Shown: one piece after another, positions 5,200 through 64,000 of the stretch
Layout of the letters: each line of letters begins with the position of its first letter
Numbering within the stretch: the first letter of the stretch is position 1
Assembly: GCF_009720675.1 (NCBI RefSeq)
Contig: NZ_WNJO01000003.1
Span: 62,001 to 126,000 of the forward strand
Source: Secundilactobacillus folii
Lineage (GTDB): Bacteria > Bacillota > Bacilli > Lactobacillales > Lactobacillaceae
Direction: 5' to 3'
Length of the DNA stretch: 64,000 bases
Program-made: the position numbers and the translations under genes
The notes under the pieces: model-generated
Database searches by the model: none
What the model was told of the DNA's origin: nothing
What the model saw: only the letters and a program-made list of their open reading frames with translations

Positions 5200-5500
5200 A
5201 AAAAAAGCCCTCGCAAACTAACTTGATAGTTTGCGAGGGCGATATGATCGCGGTTCCACCTCAAATGCATCGACACCTCACGATGCCGACCTTACGTTGC
5301 CAATAACTAGTCGTCAGTCCACACTGAGAACAGTTACGGTAACCCTGATAACGCTAAACATGCGGAGCGGCCTACTTAGTTCAGCCGATCAGTTCATAGA
5401 GGTGTTTCACTGGTCCAACCACCCGGTTTCCATCATCCCGAGCTCGCTTCACGTTAGATCCCAGTTACTTATTCTAATCACAACTTTTTGTCATTAAGTT
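5200..5500 (-). promoter_or_regulatory. Histidine T-box leader of the his operon
   Basis: On the minus strand the leader carries the T-box core AGGTGGAACCGCGA (5245-5262), followed by a terminator hairpin with GCCCTCGCAAACT arms and a T run (5201-5241). Stem I has the AAGTA side of the specifier loop and GAAACAC on the 3' side. The specifier codon CAC (5402-5404) is histidine. The antiterminator variable base gives UGGA. Uncharged tRNA-His should favour read-through into hisZ. A perfect -35 (TTGACA) lies at 5538-5543; I could not fix the -10. Confidence 0.93.
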
Positions 5501-8728: not shown

Positions 8729-8990
8729 AAAGACCGTCCCGTATAAAAATACAAGGACGACCTAGTCGCGTTACCACCTTTAAATCGAGTAAACCTCACG
8801 ATTTACTCCTCAGAGAGTACTTCAATTATCATTAAAATACCCCTGCGCTATAACGGGCGAACCCGTCGCTGGCTAATCGTTCACCAGTGAATGACTCCAA
8901 GACCATCTTCAGCACAGCTTGCAGTCCAGCTTTCACCTAACCTGGCTCTCTTTGCAGCAATTTGTGCCTACTCATCTTGTCTTCGTCAAC
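8729..8990 (-). promoter_or_regulatory. Methionine T-box leader of the NMT1-type ABC transporter
   Basis: Minus strand: T-box core AAAGGTGGTAACGCG (about 8767-8781), terminator hairpin at 8729-8767 ending in TTTT, and Stem I with GATGAGTA and GAAGATG on the two sides of the specifier loop. The specifier ATG at 8904-8906 is methionine. UGGU in the T-box bulge fits an A73 discriminator, as tRNA-Met has. It is closely similar in layout to the metE T-box at 56.9-57.2 kb. Confidence 0.93.
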
Positions 8991-9010
8991 TAACTGTAAA
9001 TACACATTAA

Positions 9011-19116: not shown

Positions 19117-19211
19117 ATCTTAAAGTTTAATTTATTAGTGAACAATCTTTGCAACCATGCATGATTCAGGTTAATCAACGCTGGAATTTAAAAAGTATTT
19201 CAATAAAGTCC

Positions 19212-19240
19212 TTGCTATTTGAAGGATTACCCTGTATAGT
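19212..19240 (+). promoter_or_regulatory. Promoter of the cold-shock gene
   Basis: TTGCTA (19212-19217) and TATAGT (19235-19240) are spaced 17 bp, with TG just before the -10 (extended -10). It leaves a 5' UTR of about 115 nt before the csp start, typical of cold-shock mRNAs whose leader folds differently with temperature. Confidence 0.7.
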
Positions 19241-19361
19241 ATCAACTAATGTATTTAATACTTCGAAATTTTGGTACGACGTTCGTGAGAATGACTTCCC
19301 CGATTTCAAAAGTTTCAGATACACAAATATATTGCGCTATGCGCTCGGAGGTTTCATTCTT

Positions 19362-19562
19362 ATGGAACAAGGTACTGTTAAATGGTTCAACGGCGACAAA
19401 GGTTACGGTTTTATTACTCTTGAAAACGGCTCAGACGTTTTCGTACACTTCTCAGCTATCAATGCTGATGGTTACAAGACCCTTGAAGAAGGCCAACACG
19501 TAACCTTAGACGTTGAACAAGGCGACCGCGGCCCACAAGCAGCCAACGTTACTGTTGCTTAA
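19362..19562 (+). CDS. csp: Cold-shock protein, CspA family
   Basis: 66 aa OB-fold nucleic-acid chaperone. RNP1 is KGYGFITLE and RNP2 is VFVHFSAI. Start ATG 19362 behind SD CGGAGG; the longer frame back to 19149 is not coding. Binds single-stranded RNA/DNA and melts secondary structure. Monocistronic, with a promoter at 19212-19240 and a strong terminator after it. Confidence 0.97.
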
Positions 19563-19579
19563 TTAACTCTAAGCAATTT

Positions 19580-19615
19580 AAAAAGCTCACCAACTTTTGT
19601 TGGTGAGCTTTTTTG
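19580..19615 (+). terminator. Rho-independent terminator of csp
   Basis: Perfect hairpin AAGCTCACCAAC / GTTGGTGAGCTT followed by six T. It also lies just past the end of the convergent M20 gene. Confidence 0.92.
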
Positions 19616-60225: not shown

Positions 60226-60912
60226 TCAATTTTTTCGCCAACTGATGGCTGTAGTTTCCCGATCTCGTTTAACTAACTTATTCAACTGGTTAAACAGCGG
60301 TCGTTGCTGCACGCCGTCCTGAGCGTACGTCTCGGCACTTTTAGTGTCAGTCACCGAGCGAGGAAATTGAGCCCGATAATCCAGGTTGACCGCCTCTTCA
60401 TCTACCTTTTGAATCGAATAGTACCGGTTAGCAAAGTACATGACACTTTTCATCTGCGGATTGTGTGCCAGACCCATGGTATGACCTAGCTCGTGTTCTG
60501 CCACATCGATCCGTTGCTGATGGGTGTACTTGTAAGTCTTCAGTGTTGTACTGTTAAGATAAGTGTCGACTTTGGTGATCAAGTCGTCATTGTTGTAGGT
60601 GACATACGTCAAACCCGCGATACTGGCCTTTCTTTCGTTTAGTGGCATCGGAGCAATCGTGATCTGCGCTTGGGCAGCCGTGGTCAATCTGAACTGAAAG
60701 ACGTGTTCGTGATTCCAGTTAGTCAGCGCTTGACGCCAGATCTGCTGATAATAGGGACTCGTGACAGTCATGCGAACGGTGGCTTCATCAGTGGCAAAAC
60801 GGTAAGGCTTAACCGGCGTGATCTCGGCCTGCGCAGTGATCGCGGCGCCACAGGCTAAACCAACCAACCCAACAAACAGACATAATAATAGCTTACCTGC
60901 ACTAATGAACAT
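60226..60912 (-). CDS. Matrixin-type zinc metalloprotease (M10 family), secreted
   Basis: 228 aa from ATG 60912 behind SD AAAGGAGG; the longer frame is unlikely. Signal peptide (LLLCLFVGLVGLACGAAITAQA). Motif HELGHTMGLAH (His140, 144, 150) and Met-turn SVMYF (Met158). It shares PYRFATDEATV, YYQQIWRQA and WNHEH with the matrixin at 52.4 kb, so these two are paralogues. C-terminal tail of about 60 aa is polar. Confidence 0.88.
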   Translation of the reverse strand: MFISAGKLLLCLFVGLVGLACGAAITAQAEITPVKPYRFATDEATVRMTVTSPYYQQIWRQALTNWNHEHVFQFRLTTAAQAQITIAPMPLNERKASIAGLTYVTYNNDDLITKVDTYLNSTTLKTYKYTHQQRIDVAEHELGHTMGLAHNPQMKSVMYFANRYYSIQKVDEEAVNLDYRAQFPRSVTDTKSAETYAQDGVQQRPLFNQLNKLVKRDRETTAISWRKN

Positions 60913-61065: not shown

Positions 61066-62409
61066 TCAAAGGCTTTTTTCGTGATTTTTCGGTGACCCCA
61101 ATAACCAATAAACTAACCCACCCACGAAAAAACCAACGAACCATGACACATTCACGGTGAAGGCTGCTGCAACTGCTCCCAATATTAGTGCCAAGGGTGC
61201 CCGCCAAGTATAGAGTGGCACTTGCGGTGCATAGAGATCGGCCATGGAAACTTTTTGACGTCGATGCACGTAATACTCAATCAAAATAATTGCCGTCATT
61301 GGACCCAAAAAGATGGCGTAAATATGAATAAACAGGGCTAAACCAGTAGCTGAACTATTTTGCACGAGCAACCACGGACACGTTAGTACTGCCAAGACGC
61401 CAATAATTGCGGTGGCGCCTTTTTGCGGCATCTTCAAGATCCCCGTTAGCATGTAAGTCGGCGGCATGATGTTGGCAACGGTATTGGTCGTGATCGTTCC
61501 CAGCACAATGAAAACTGAAACGATAACAGTCACGGCTTGATTGTGAAAGAGTACGGCCATGGCATTGACCGGGCTGGCGATCCCCGTAACTACCGCAATC
61601 ATGGCGCCAGTTAGGATCGTTAACCCATACGCTATGCCAATGGGTAATAAATACAATAGTGCTCGTCGTCCGCTGCTAACGCCCGTTTTCAGCTCCCGTG
61701 AATAATCGGCGGCCGACTCAAAGATGGCGGTGTAATTACCAAGAAAGGCTACGATTAAACTCCAAAATGGCAGTCCCCACGTGCCTTTAGCGTGCACAAA
61801 TCGTTGTTGAATCGCCAACTGGTGCTGAGTAATCAAAAGAATGAAAACACCCACCATGGCAAGCATCACCAGCGTTGCAATGAGACTATTCACAACCTTG
61901 ATGGATTTAAATCCACCTAGCGCAAGTAGCACTTGCATCAGTTGAAAAATCAAAAAGGCCTGAAAAGTGTAATCCTGTCGATAACCAAAAAGAATCCGTC
62001 TAATCTGATTCAGTGCCAGCGCACCCGTCCAGCTTTGAAAACCAAACCAAACGATGGCTGGCACCCCGCGCAGAAGACTGGCAAGCTTGGCACCTTGCTG
62101 CCCGAACGATAATCTCAGTTGAATCACGTACGGTGCTCCCGTTTGATAACCGAAACGATCATTGAAGGTAAAAATCAACGAAATCAACGAAATGGCAATT
62201 ATTGCAGCAGTCATCGTCTGCATCAGGTTCAACGTTGCAGCACCAGCCACGACAATCGAAGAGCCTAAGGTAATGTTGCCAATGTTGAAGCCATCACCCA
62301 GCCACATCGCCGCGTAAGCAAGCGTACCAACATGCCGTGTGTCAGTGGTCAACGGCCGTAAATCAGCGGCAACGTTATCCCACCTATCATTGCTGATGGA
62401 TGGTGTCAT
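61066..62409 (-). CDS. NCS1-family permease, allantoin/hydantoin-type
   Basis: 447 aa, about 12 membrane segments. NCS1 blocks: NVAADLRPLTTDTRHVGTLAYAAMWLGDGFNIGN and WFGFQSWTGALALN, GNYTAIFESAADYSRELKTG. This resembles PucI and Mhp1. Start overlaps the amidohydrolase stop by 4 bp, so the two are coupled. Controlled by a TPP riboswitch. Substrate: a cyclic amide, or a thiamine-related pyrimidine, by inference. Confidence 0.9.
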   Translation of the reverse strand: MTPSISNDRWDNVAADLRPLTTDTRHVGTLAYAAMWLGDGFNIGNITLGSSIVVAGAATLNLMQTMTAAIIAISLISLIFTFNDRFGYQTGAPYVIQLRLSFGQQGAKLASLLRGVPAIVWFGFQSWTGALALNQIRRILFGYRQDYTFQAFLIFQLMQVLLALGGFKSIKVVNSLIATLVMLAMVGVFILLITQHQLAIQQRFVHAKGTWGLPFWSLIVAFLGNYTAIFESAADYSRELKTGVSSGRRALLYLLPIGIAYGLTILTGAMIAVVTGIASPVNAMAVLFHNQAVTVIVSVFIVLGTITTNTVANIMPPTYMLTGILKMPQKGATAIIGVLAVLTCPWLLVQNSSATGLALFIHIYAIFLGPMTAIILIEYYVHRRQKVSMADLYAPQVPLYTWRAPLALILGAVAAAFTVNVSWFVGFFVGGLVYWLLGSPKNHEKSL

Positions 62410-63797
62410 AACGTTGCCTCCGTTCGCAGGTCGTTCGTTAAGAATTTACCAGTTGGCTCTTTACTGAACGGTCGTCCCAGTTCAAAAATCGTTTGGCCAC
62501 GTAAGAGGGTTCGCGTTACTCGACTGTGAATCGTCCGGCCAACGTAAGCAGACAGTTTATTTTTATAGAATAGATCCTCATTACGTAACGTATAACTAGC
62601 GTTAGGGTCCAGCAAAACAAAGTCCGCATCTTTACCAACCGTGAGTTGCCCCTTCTGTGTCAGGCCGAATAGTTCCGCAGGACGTTGGGCTGTCAAATGC
62701 ACAAACTGGGTGACGGATAACTTGCCGGATTTTACCCCCACATCGTAAAACAAGTCCACGTTATTCTGTGCCCCACTGATACCACCCCAGACTTCGAAAA
62801 TATTATTGTGAGGGTCAGCCTTCATTGCTGCTGGTGCAGGTGAGTGGTCAGAGGTCACAATATCCACGTGACCAGCTTGGACTTCGTGCCAGAGGTCGGC
62901 CTGGATCTCAGGTGACCTCAGTACAGGCGCACACTTAGCTAGCGGCCCAATGCGCTTAAAATCAGCTGTCGTCAGGGTCAAATAGTGGACACAGGTTTCA
63001 CAGGTCACGTCCTGTCCTGCCTGGCGCGCTCTTTGAACCTCTCGGACTGCTGCCCCAGTTGATAGGTGAACAAAGTGCAGTTTGCAGCCGGTCTGTTTAG
63101 CAATATACAGAGCTCTTCTTACTGCTTCGACCTCCACCATTGGCGGTCGAGAATCAATGTAGGCTTGAATGTCAGTATGACCCTGTGCAATTTCTGCTTC
63201 GGCTAGTCGATCCGTTAACACCGCATTCTCTGCATGCAAGGATAGTCGCAGCCCAGTCTTAGCAGTGGCTTGCATCCCCCAGTAGAGATCATAATCGTCC
63301 ACGTTATGAAAATCACCAGGCGTGTCCGTCCCAGCCGTTGCCATAAAAGCTTTAAATCCCGCTGCCCCAGTAGCTGCCATCGCTTCTATTTCAGCCTGAT
63401 TCCCCGGTACCAAGCCACCATACAGTGCGAAATCAACATACGATTTACCCGAGGCAATTTGGCGATGACGGTTGAATTCAGCAGCTGTCGTGCGCGCTGG
63501 CAGGGCATTTAACGGCATCACCACCATACTTGTGGTGCCACCGGCCGCCAGTGCTTGGCTGCCAGTTTGGTAATCTTCCCAGTCGCTGCGCCCCGGCTCG
63601 TTGATGTGGACGTGGGCATCCACCATACCAGGCAGTACCAGTTGCCCCTTGGCATCAATCGTTGTTACCGCAGTTAAGCCGTGATTTAACAGGTTCCCGA
63701 TGGCAGCAATTCTGCCATTCTCAATTGCCAGCTCACCTTTAACGACGCTTGTCGGGGTGACAATTGCAGCATTTTTAATAACGGTCGCTACTTGCAT
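62406..63797 (-). CDS. Allantoinase-like cyclic amidohydrolase
   Basis: 463 aa from ATG 63797, 8 bp after SD GGAGG; the frame continues to 63851 but runs into the riboswitch terminator. Dihydroorotase/allantoinase superfamily: metal ligands DAHVHINEPG, GFKAFMA (carboxylated Lys), SLHAEN, HFVHLST, and SDHSP. Blocks such as EPGRSDWEDYQTGSQ, CETCVHYLTL and RPAELFGLTQKGQLTVGKDADF are close to allantoinase AllB. It hydrolyses a cyclic amide; the substrate under TPP control is not established. Operon with the NCS1 permease. Confidence 0.9.
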   Translation of the reverse strand: MQVATVIKNAAIVTPTSVVKGELAIENGRIAAIGNLLNHGLTAVTTIDAKGQLVLPGMVDAHVHINEPGRSDWEDYQTGSQALAAGGTTSMVVMPLNALPARTTAAEFNRHRQIASGKSYVDFALYGGLVPGNQAEIEAMAATGAAGFKAFMATAGTDTPGDFHNVDDYDLYWGMQATAKTGLRLSLHAENAVLTDRLAEAEIAQGHTDIQAYIDSRPPMVEVEAVRRALYIAKQTGCKLHFVHLSTGAAVREVQRARQAGQDVTCETCVHYLTLTTADFKRIGPLAKCAPVLRSPEIQADLWHEVQAGHVDIVTSDHSPAPAAMKADPHNNIFEVWGGISGAQNNVDLFYDVGVKSGKLSVTQFVHLTAQRPAELFGLTQKGQLTVGKDADFVLLDPNASYTLRNEDLFYKNKLSAYVGRTIHSRVTRTLLRGQTIFELGRPFSKEPTGKFLTNDLRTEATL

Positions 63798-63836
63798 TTG
63801 ATTTCCTCCAGACACATTGGGGGCTGGAAATTGCGC

Positions 63837-63871
63837 AAATAAAAAGTCCATCTGAATAACTCAAATGGACT
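63837..63871 (-). terminator. Riboswitch expression-platform terminator
   Basis: AGTCCATTTGA / TCAGATGGACT with T5 tail on the minus strand, directly after the TPP aptamer. A small hairpin TAGTC-GAGA-GACTA lies between them. Confidence 0.85.
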
Positions 63872-63883
63872 GGTAGTCTCTCG

Positions 63884-63963
63884 ACTAATGGCGCTCCCTA
63901 CGGCAGTACGAACTGCATCAGGTTATTTGGGTATCTCTCAGCTATCGCTAGCACCCCAGACCA
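63884..63963 (-). promoter_or_regulatory. TPP (THI-box) riboswitch aptamer
   Basis: Minus strand shows the conserved TPP aptamer order: GGGGTGCTAGCGATAGCTGAGA, then ATACCC, AACCTGATGCAGTTCGTACTGC, and CGTAGGGAGCG. These are the THI-box landmarks (CTGAGA, ACCTGAT and CGTAGGGA). High TPP would favour the downstream terminator and shut off the operon. It controls the allantoinase-like gene and NCS1 permease. Confidence 0.94.
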
Positions 63964-64000
63964 CAATGTTTTATTGTCTATTATTAAATACAATTTGGTA

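Follow-up and report, generated by a model that had tools for sequence, protein, structure and literature searches.

Why does a thiamine pyrophosphate (TPP) riboswitch precede genes for an allantoinase (AllB) and an NCS1 permease in Secundilactobacillus folii? The stretch of DNA that raises this question, 64,000 nucleotides of contig NZ_WNJO01000003.1 (positions 62,001 to 126,000), is called the window here, and the genome to which it belongs (2.68 Mb) is labelled G000. An earlier note on this DNA had suggested that the pair might take up and open a ring compound that is either a precursor or a breakdown product of thiamine. We propose instead that the operon is probably the front half of a TPP-controlled route from allantoin to thiazole which feeds ThiG, and we give this reading a probability of about 0.7. 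The enzyme expected to act after AllB, AllC, is encoded in the thiazole operon of the same genome, which points to thiazole being built from allantoin. In a literature search covering titles and the beginnings of abstracts, with most subscription journals outside it, no report linking allantoin, allantoate or AllB to ThiG or to a TPP riboswitch was found, nor one connecting ureidoglycine with iminoacetate.

Results

Riboswitch, AllB and permease in the window

The locus consists of four features in the following order of transcription:

63877-63968, minus strand: TPP riboswitch aptamer (Rfam RF00059, 59.5 bits, gathering score 54.3)
63845-63871, minus strand: intrinsic terminator stem-loop with T run, expression platform behind the aptamer (fold and terminator scan)
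62406-63797, minus strand: allB, allantoinase (TIGR03178, 539.6 bits, cut-off 357.85)
61066-62409, minus strand: NCS1 permease, proposed allantoin importer (PF02133; follows AllB at 15 of 15 riboswitch-AllB loci)

The aptamer, which the earlier note had placed at 63884-63963, was recovered by the Rfam scan above the gathering score. The terminator, previously drawn at 63837-63871, was found as a stem of 12 pairs (63871-63845) with TTTTATTTGC behind it. This stem and T run form an expression platform between the aptamer and allB, and a response to the ligand is predicted. The terminator pattern alone is not significant, since the scan of the region returned three sites when 3.4 were expected in shuffled sequences. 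The RNA of positions 63825-63880 folds with −14.5 kcal/mol against a shuffle mean of −6.16 (z −3.59), and one of 200 shuffles was equally stable.

Counted from the ATG behind GGAGGAAATCAA, AllB has 463 amino acids; a longer alternative frame, from 63851, would start within the terminator stem. Apart from passing the TIGR03178 cut-off, the protein scored 304 bits with the dihydropyrimidinase model and at most 264 bits with the dihydroorotase models, and two narrower allantoinase models (PRK) were not reached in the profile scan. Its best solved relatives are the E. coli allantoinase, and a by-eye reading of the alignment to that enzyme found HxH, Lys, His, His and Asp, the metal-binding residues of cyclic amidohydrolases, to be retained. 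AllB of the window is also 66-73% identical to AllB of the genomes G032, G122, G108 and G081, where the gene sits in allantoin-type clusters. It would thus act as an allantoinase, opening allantoin to allantoate.

The permease has 447 amino acids, and its gene overlaps allB by 4 bp, as had been noted before. It scored 167.5 bits with PF02133 (cut-off 23.5) but stayed below the cut-off of TIGR00800 (175.9 vs 353.1 bits); the sole PDB relatives found were two Mhp1 (hydantoin permease) sequences. The earlier family assignments, an AllB-like amidohydrolase and an NCS1 permease, are thus confirmed by the TIGR03178 and PF02133 scores. A CytX-type hydroxymethylpyrimidine (HMP) transporter was rejected as the identity of the permease (TIGR02358, 31 bits vs cut-off 309.85); the CytX of G000 (397.7 bits) stands under a different TPP riboswitch.

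TPP regulon and thiazole operon of the genome

Seven TPP riboswitches were found in G000. The genes behind them are given below, those that were not scanned being named by eye or by resemblance:

YkoE-like protein and ABC-type transporter
CytX and ThiW
ThiM, ThiD and ThiE
M20 hydrolase of the ArgE/DapE type and YkoE-like protein (L012:2522-4554, contig C57, plus strand)
TenA
AllB and NCS1 permease
thiS, thiF and thiG, then an AllC-family gene (contig C1, outside the window)

ThiS and ThiF were identified by NCBIfam and ThiG by PF05690, so that all three are present; allC and thiG share 4 bp where the two genes meet. The ArgE/DapE-type hydrolase and the YkoE-like protein may form a pyrimidine salvage pair resembling that of YlmB, the TPP-controlled amide hydrolase of formylaminopyrimidine salvage. 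The route proposed here shares with YlmB an amide hydrolase under TPP control; however, YlmB belongs to another hydrolase family, and it serves the pyrimidine branch, not the thiazole branch.

AllC in the thiG operons of Lactobacillaceae

We surveyed 397 Lactobacillaceae genomes of 40 genera (genomes are labelled G and genera g). ThiG is present in 45 genomes of 10 genera. Inspection of the gene order at each of the 45 loci placed AllC within the thiG operon at 44 of them, directly behind thiG in 37 and behind an MFS transporter in seven. The remaining locus, that of G113, has ThiO in the AllC slot (271.2 vs 250.8 bits), and no AllC was seen there. Fifteen of the 45 genomes were checked for a TPP riboswitch ahead of the thi operon, and each has one. 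Among the 80 top-ranking AllC relatives from named GTDB contigs, eight have ThiG in the stretch taken, and all eight are Lactobacillaceae: Secundilactobacillus pentosiphilus, S. kimchicus, Lentilactobacillus sunkii, L. farraginis, L. fungorum, Weissella paramesenteroides, Fructobacillus sp. EFB-N1 and a metagenome-assembled genome of a Lactobacillus sp. The allC gene of the thi operon is broken across two reading frames in G126, G295 and G291 (L035, L195 and L206, respectively), by either sequencing error or decay.

The thi-operon AllC of G000 passed the subfamily model TIGR01879 (354.5 vs 204). Its two top-scoring models are both allantoate models, although their cut-offs were not reached. 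The nearest solved relative is the E. coli allantoate amidohydrolase (256 bits); the others scored at most 205 bits, among them a named N-carbamoyl-amino-acid hydrolase (178) and ureidoglycolate hydrolase (168). In a 57-row tree, thi-operon AllC falls inside a 36-row clade together with E. coli AllC (support 100/99). Fourteen diagnostic columns separate the 19 non-thi rows of this clade, 17 of which have AllB nearby, from 21 outgroup rows; among the 15 main thi-operon rows, eleven of the 14 columns are conserved in no fewer than 90%, and ten are retained in both divergent rows. The thi-operon rows occupy two places in the tree, and a single clade was rejected (p 2.2e-6).

It could be argued that AllC of the thi operon cuts a substrate other than allantoate, for example ureidoglycolate or some N-carbamoyl amino acid, and supplies ThiG, or a different step, with glyoxylate, ammonia or glycine. 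The hydantoinase/carbamoylase family is indeed broad, and AllC remains below its equivalog cut-off. The ranking of the solved relatives, the placement with E. coli AllC and the conserved diagnostic columns speak against another substrate, which we therefore consider unlikely.

Distribution of riboswitch-controlled AllB and of transporters

AllB exceeded the cut-off in 25 of the 397 genomes. The earlier note had proposed looking for the pair behind TPP riboswitches in other lactobacilli, and such an arrangement was indeed found: a TPP riboswitch lies directly upstream of AllB in 15 genomes including G000 (eight of g1, six of g14 and one of g33), and an NCS1 gene follows AllB at each of these loci. 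This recurrence makes the order riboswitch, AllB, NCS1 more than a matter of chance. All 15 genomes possess ThiG, with AllC encoded in the same operon, whereas ThiG occurs in only two of the ten genomes whose AllB has no TPP riboswitch beside it (Fisher's test 4.2e-5, with kinship ignored). This bears out the earlier suggestion that the pair is a part of thiamine metabolism, a link which we regard as real.

A terminator-like leader is not a peculiarity of G000. A hairpin with a T run was found in the leaders of all eight g1 loci (G000 and seven others) and of G209, and the hairpin of G109 is terminator-like; that of G371 is weak. In G180, G304, G335 and G345 the hairpin includes the purine-rich stretch ahead of the start codon, so that control may be translational there. 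The loci of G304, G335, G345 and G371 (L169, L162, L163 and L182) carry two tandem TPP riboswitches in the order riboswitch, YkoE-like gene, riboswitch, allB, NCS1.

Salvage of a cyclic precursor or breakdown product of thiamine, imported by the permease and opened by AllB, would fit the TPP control of the pair, the TPP-controlled YkoE-like gene just upstream of AllB in these four Lentilactobacillus-type loci, and the other salvage genes that are under TPP control in G000 (CytX, ThiW, TenA and the ArgE/DapE-type hydrolase). However, AllB exceeds the allantoinase cut-off and is closely similar to AllB of allantoin-type clusters, its partner AllC lies in the thiazole operon and not beside pyrimidine genes, and riboswitch-AllB was found only together with ThiG (15/15). 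The opening of a thiamine-derived ring, as originally suggested, is accordingly not favoured and appears very improbable. The same note had held that the thiamine link would be accidental if the enzyme hydrolysed allantoin efficiently and other genomes had the pair under purine or nitrogen control only. The enzyme does look like an allantoinase, so that the first part is in prospect, but the pair is repeatedly under TPP control.

The wider context of AllB was read in five of the ten genomes without the riboswitch. In G032, G081, G108 and G122, the neighbourhood also encodes AllC together with a PucR-type regulator and a class-V aminotransferase (families were scanned for G081 only and assigned by resemblance in the others), and AllB of G053 belongs to an E. 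coli-like cluster with AllE. Further riboswitch-free copies of AllB occur alongside the riboswitch-controlled ones in G335, G345 and G371. In the AllB tree, the branches of which are long, riboswitch-AllB falls at two separate positions, and a single clade was rejected (p 0.0135); one gain followed by one loss may also be accommodated by the tree in place of two gains.

The 44 AllC-bearing thi operons encode an SDF symporter (24), an MFS transporter (7) or no transporter (11); the other two (G221 and G253) extend past the end of a contig. All 11 genomes without a thi-operon transporter have riboswitch-AllB with NCS1, in comparison with three of the 31 genomes that have a transporter (Fisher's test 8.5e-8, with kinship ignored). 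On a simple reading, the SDF and MFS carriers would import allantoate, whereas NCS1 and AllB would import and open allantoin. These data also bear on the substrate of AllC: the SDF symporters, members of a dicarboxylate/amino-acid carrier family which most thi operons have rather than AllB, would be compatible with another substrate, while the transporter-free genomes possess riboswitch-AllB, which would make allantoate.

Sources of dehydroglycine and fate of ureidoglycine

For the glycine-derived part of thiazole, two established sources are described, oxygen-dependent ThiO and ThiH, a radical S-adenosylmethionine (SAM) iron-sulfur enzyme (PMC9046217). ThiO was sought in 28 genomes, and it exceeded the cut-off only in G113 (one of 15 genomes with ThiG and none of 13 without). 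Weaker flavin adenine dinucleotide (FAD) oxidoreductases below this cut-off occur in seven further ThiG genomes and in six of the 13 ThiG-less ones. One of them, L017 of G000, was rejected as ThiO (136.5 vs 250.8 bits), like scores (132-140) being found in six of the 13 ThiG-less genomes. ThiH did not exceed the cut-off in any of the 15 ThiG genomes searched (score in G000, 24.4 bits vs 380).

A search with a query from G081 found no PucG-like aminotransferase in 12 riboswitch-AllB genomes out of 15, G000 included. AllE was not found in 14 of them, again including G000, and was found in G371. Twelve of the 15 genomes have neither enzyme. These counts also bear on the possibility that the pair serves ordinary allantoin catabolism for nitrogen, being TPP-controlled incidentally and having no part in thiazole synthesis. 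AllB and NCS1 do resemble the pair of the allantoin-type clusters, and a PucG-like enzyme is also present in G335, G345 and G371. However, catabolism for nitrogen is opposed by the position of AllC inside the thiSFG operon (44/45 loci), by the lack of a PucG-like enzyme and of AllE in most riboswitch-AllB genomes, and by the occurrence of riboswitch control at two separate positions in the AllB tree, and we regard it as quite unlikely.

Other features

Behind the permease gene, an apparently secreted matrixin-like protein (PF00413) is encoded at 60226-60912 on the minus strand. Immediately upstream of the riboswitch and outside the window lies the gene of a 502-amino-acid protein (L014:6086-7594, minus strand), by eye an Mga-type regulator, and a look-alike occupies the same position in G139 and G115. 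Elsewhere in the window, two T-box leaders and a match to the cspA thermoregulator (99.8 bits, gathering score 78) were found at the following positions:

5232-5490, minus strand
8750-8992, minus strand
19177-19613, plus strand

Discussion

The proposed route would run as follows. When TPP is scarce, the terminator would not form, and allB and the permease gene would be expressed. Allantoin would be taken up by the NCS1 permease and its ring opened by AllB to allantoate, or allantoate itself would be imported where the thi operon has an SDF or MFS carrier. AllC, produced from the TPP-controlled thiS-thiF-thiG-allC operon, would convert allantoate to (S)-ureidoglycine, CO2 and NH3. Ureidoglycine would then shed urea to give 2-iminoacetate (dehydroglycine), a step that we infer from the chemistry, or it would decay to glyoxylate and ammonia. 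ThiG would build the thiazole from the imine, which AllC would perhaps pass on to it. Ureidoglycine is labile and, according to one report, is said to end at 60 °C as glyoxylate, ammonia and urea (PMC4016543), and dehydroglycine, the precursor used by ThiG, is described in another as hydrolysing in water to glyoxylate and as being handed over from ThiH to ThiG (PMC9046217).

In such a route AllC would functionally stand in for ThiO or ThiH. We consider it probable, taking both statements together, that thi operons acquired AllC, as a substitute for ThiO, on at least two occasions and that AllC provides, via ureidoglycine and channelled 2-iminoacetate, a third supply of dehydroglycine to ThiG, one which would need neither oxygen nor a radical SAM enzyme. 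Our confidence in this third supply is lowered by the failure of AllC to reach any equivalog cut-off and by the restriction of the transporter pattern to two lineages.

These and several other observations weigh against the proposed route. AllC of the thi operon of G000 scored 344.3 with the equivalog TIGR03176, the cut-off of which is 597.75; the AllC that G081 encodes in its allantoin-type cluster likewise misses it (338.3). A transporter and riboswitch-AllB occur together in G109, G180 and G209. The transporter has been lost in only two lineages, too few for a test based on independent pairs to reach significance. Besides a second AllB, G335, G345 and G371 possess a PucG-like enzyme. The evidence on ThiO and ThiH covers 15 of the 45 ThiG genomes, the other 30 having been viewed at the operon region only. 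G081 and G108 encode a ThiH-like protein of 477 amino acids (282 bits vs the ThiH cut-off of 380), perhaps, as a guess, a HydG-like protein and another possible maker of dehydroglycine. Finally, the proposed route does not account for the supply of 1-deoxy-D-xylulose 5-phosphate (DXP): Dxs exceeded the cut-off in one of the 29 ThiG genomes tested (G209) and in one of 16 ThiG-less genomes, and no match was found in G000 at E ≤ 1e-30. This gap is not tied to AllC, since ThiO-bearing G113 also has no Dxs. ThiG-containing lactobacilli without Dxs must obtain DXP otherwise or use ThiG differently. DXP can be made from ribulose 5-phosphate by E. coli YajO and by a variant of RibB (PMC8791446), and a conversion of this kind, or another bypass of Dxs (PMC10663253), may be the source in these lactobacilli.

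The arrangement resembles thiazole synthesis of the ThiO type, known from Bacillus subtilis, in its TPP-controlled thiS, thiF and thiG genes and in the supplier of dehydroglycine encoded beside thiG, and ThiO itself occupies that place in G113. In contrast, AllC replaces ThiO in 44 of the 45 thiG operons, and the supply would depend on hydrolysis of allantoin or allantoate and not on oxygen-dependent oxidation of glycine. An oxygen-independent supply of dehydroglycine to ThiG would be shared with the ThiH type (the tyrosine lyase of E. coli), although there would be no radical SAM step here, in accordance with the result that none of the 15 ThiG genomes tested has ThiH over the cut-off. Allantoin catabolism, which proceeds by AllB, NCS1 and AllC and then AllE or a PucG-like enzyme, has its first enzymes and its permease in common with the proposed route. 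It differs in that here AllB is under a TPP riboswitch, AllC has moved to the thi operon, and AllE and the PucG-like enzyme are missing from 14 and 12, respectively, of the 15 riboswitch-AllB genomes.

Allantoin is common in plants. If the proposed route is correct, this purine-derived ureide would become a precursor of vitamin B1, and a gene otherwise filed as a generic hydantoinase or carbamoylase would acquire a role in thiamine synthesis. The hydrolytic ureide route would represent a third source of the glycine part of thiazole, one suited to fermenting bacteria, and it would explain how thiazole could be made in lactobacilli which possess ThiG but neither ThiO nor ThiH.

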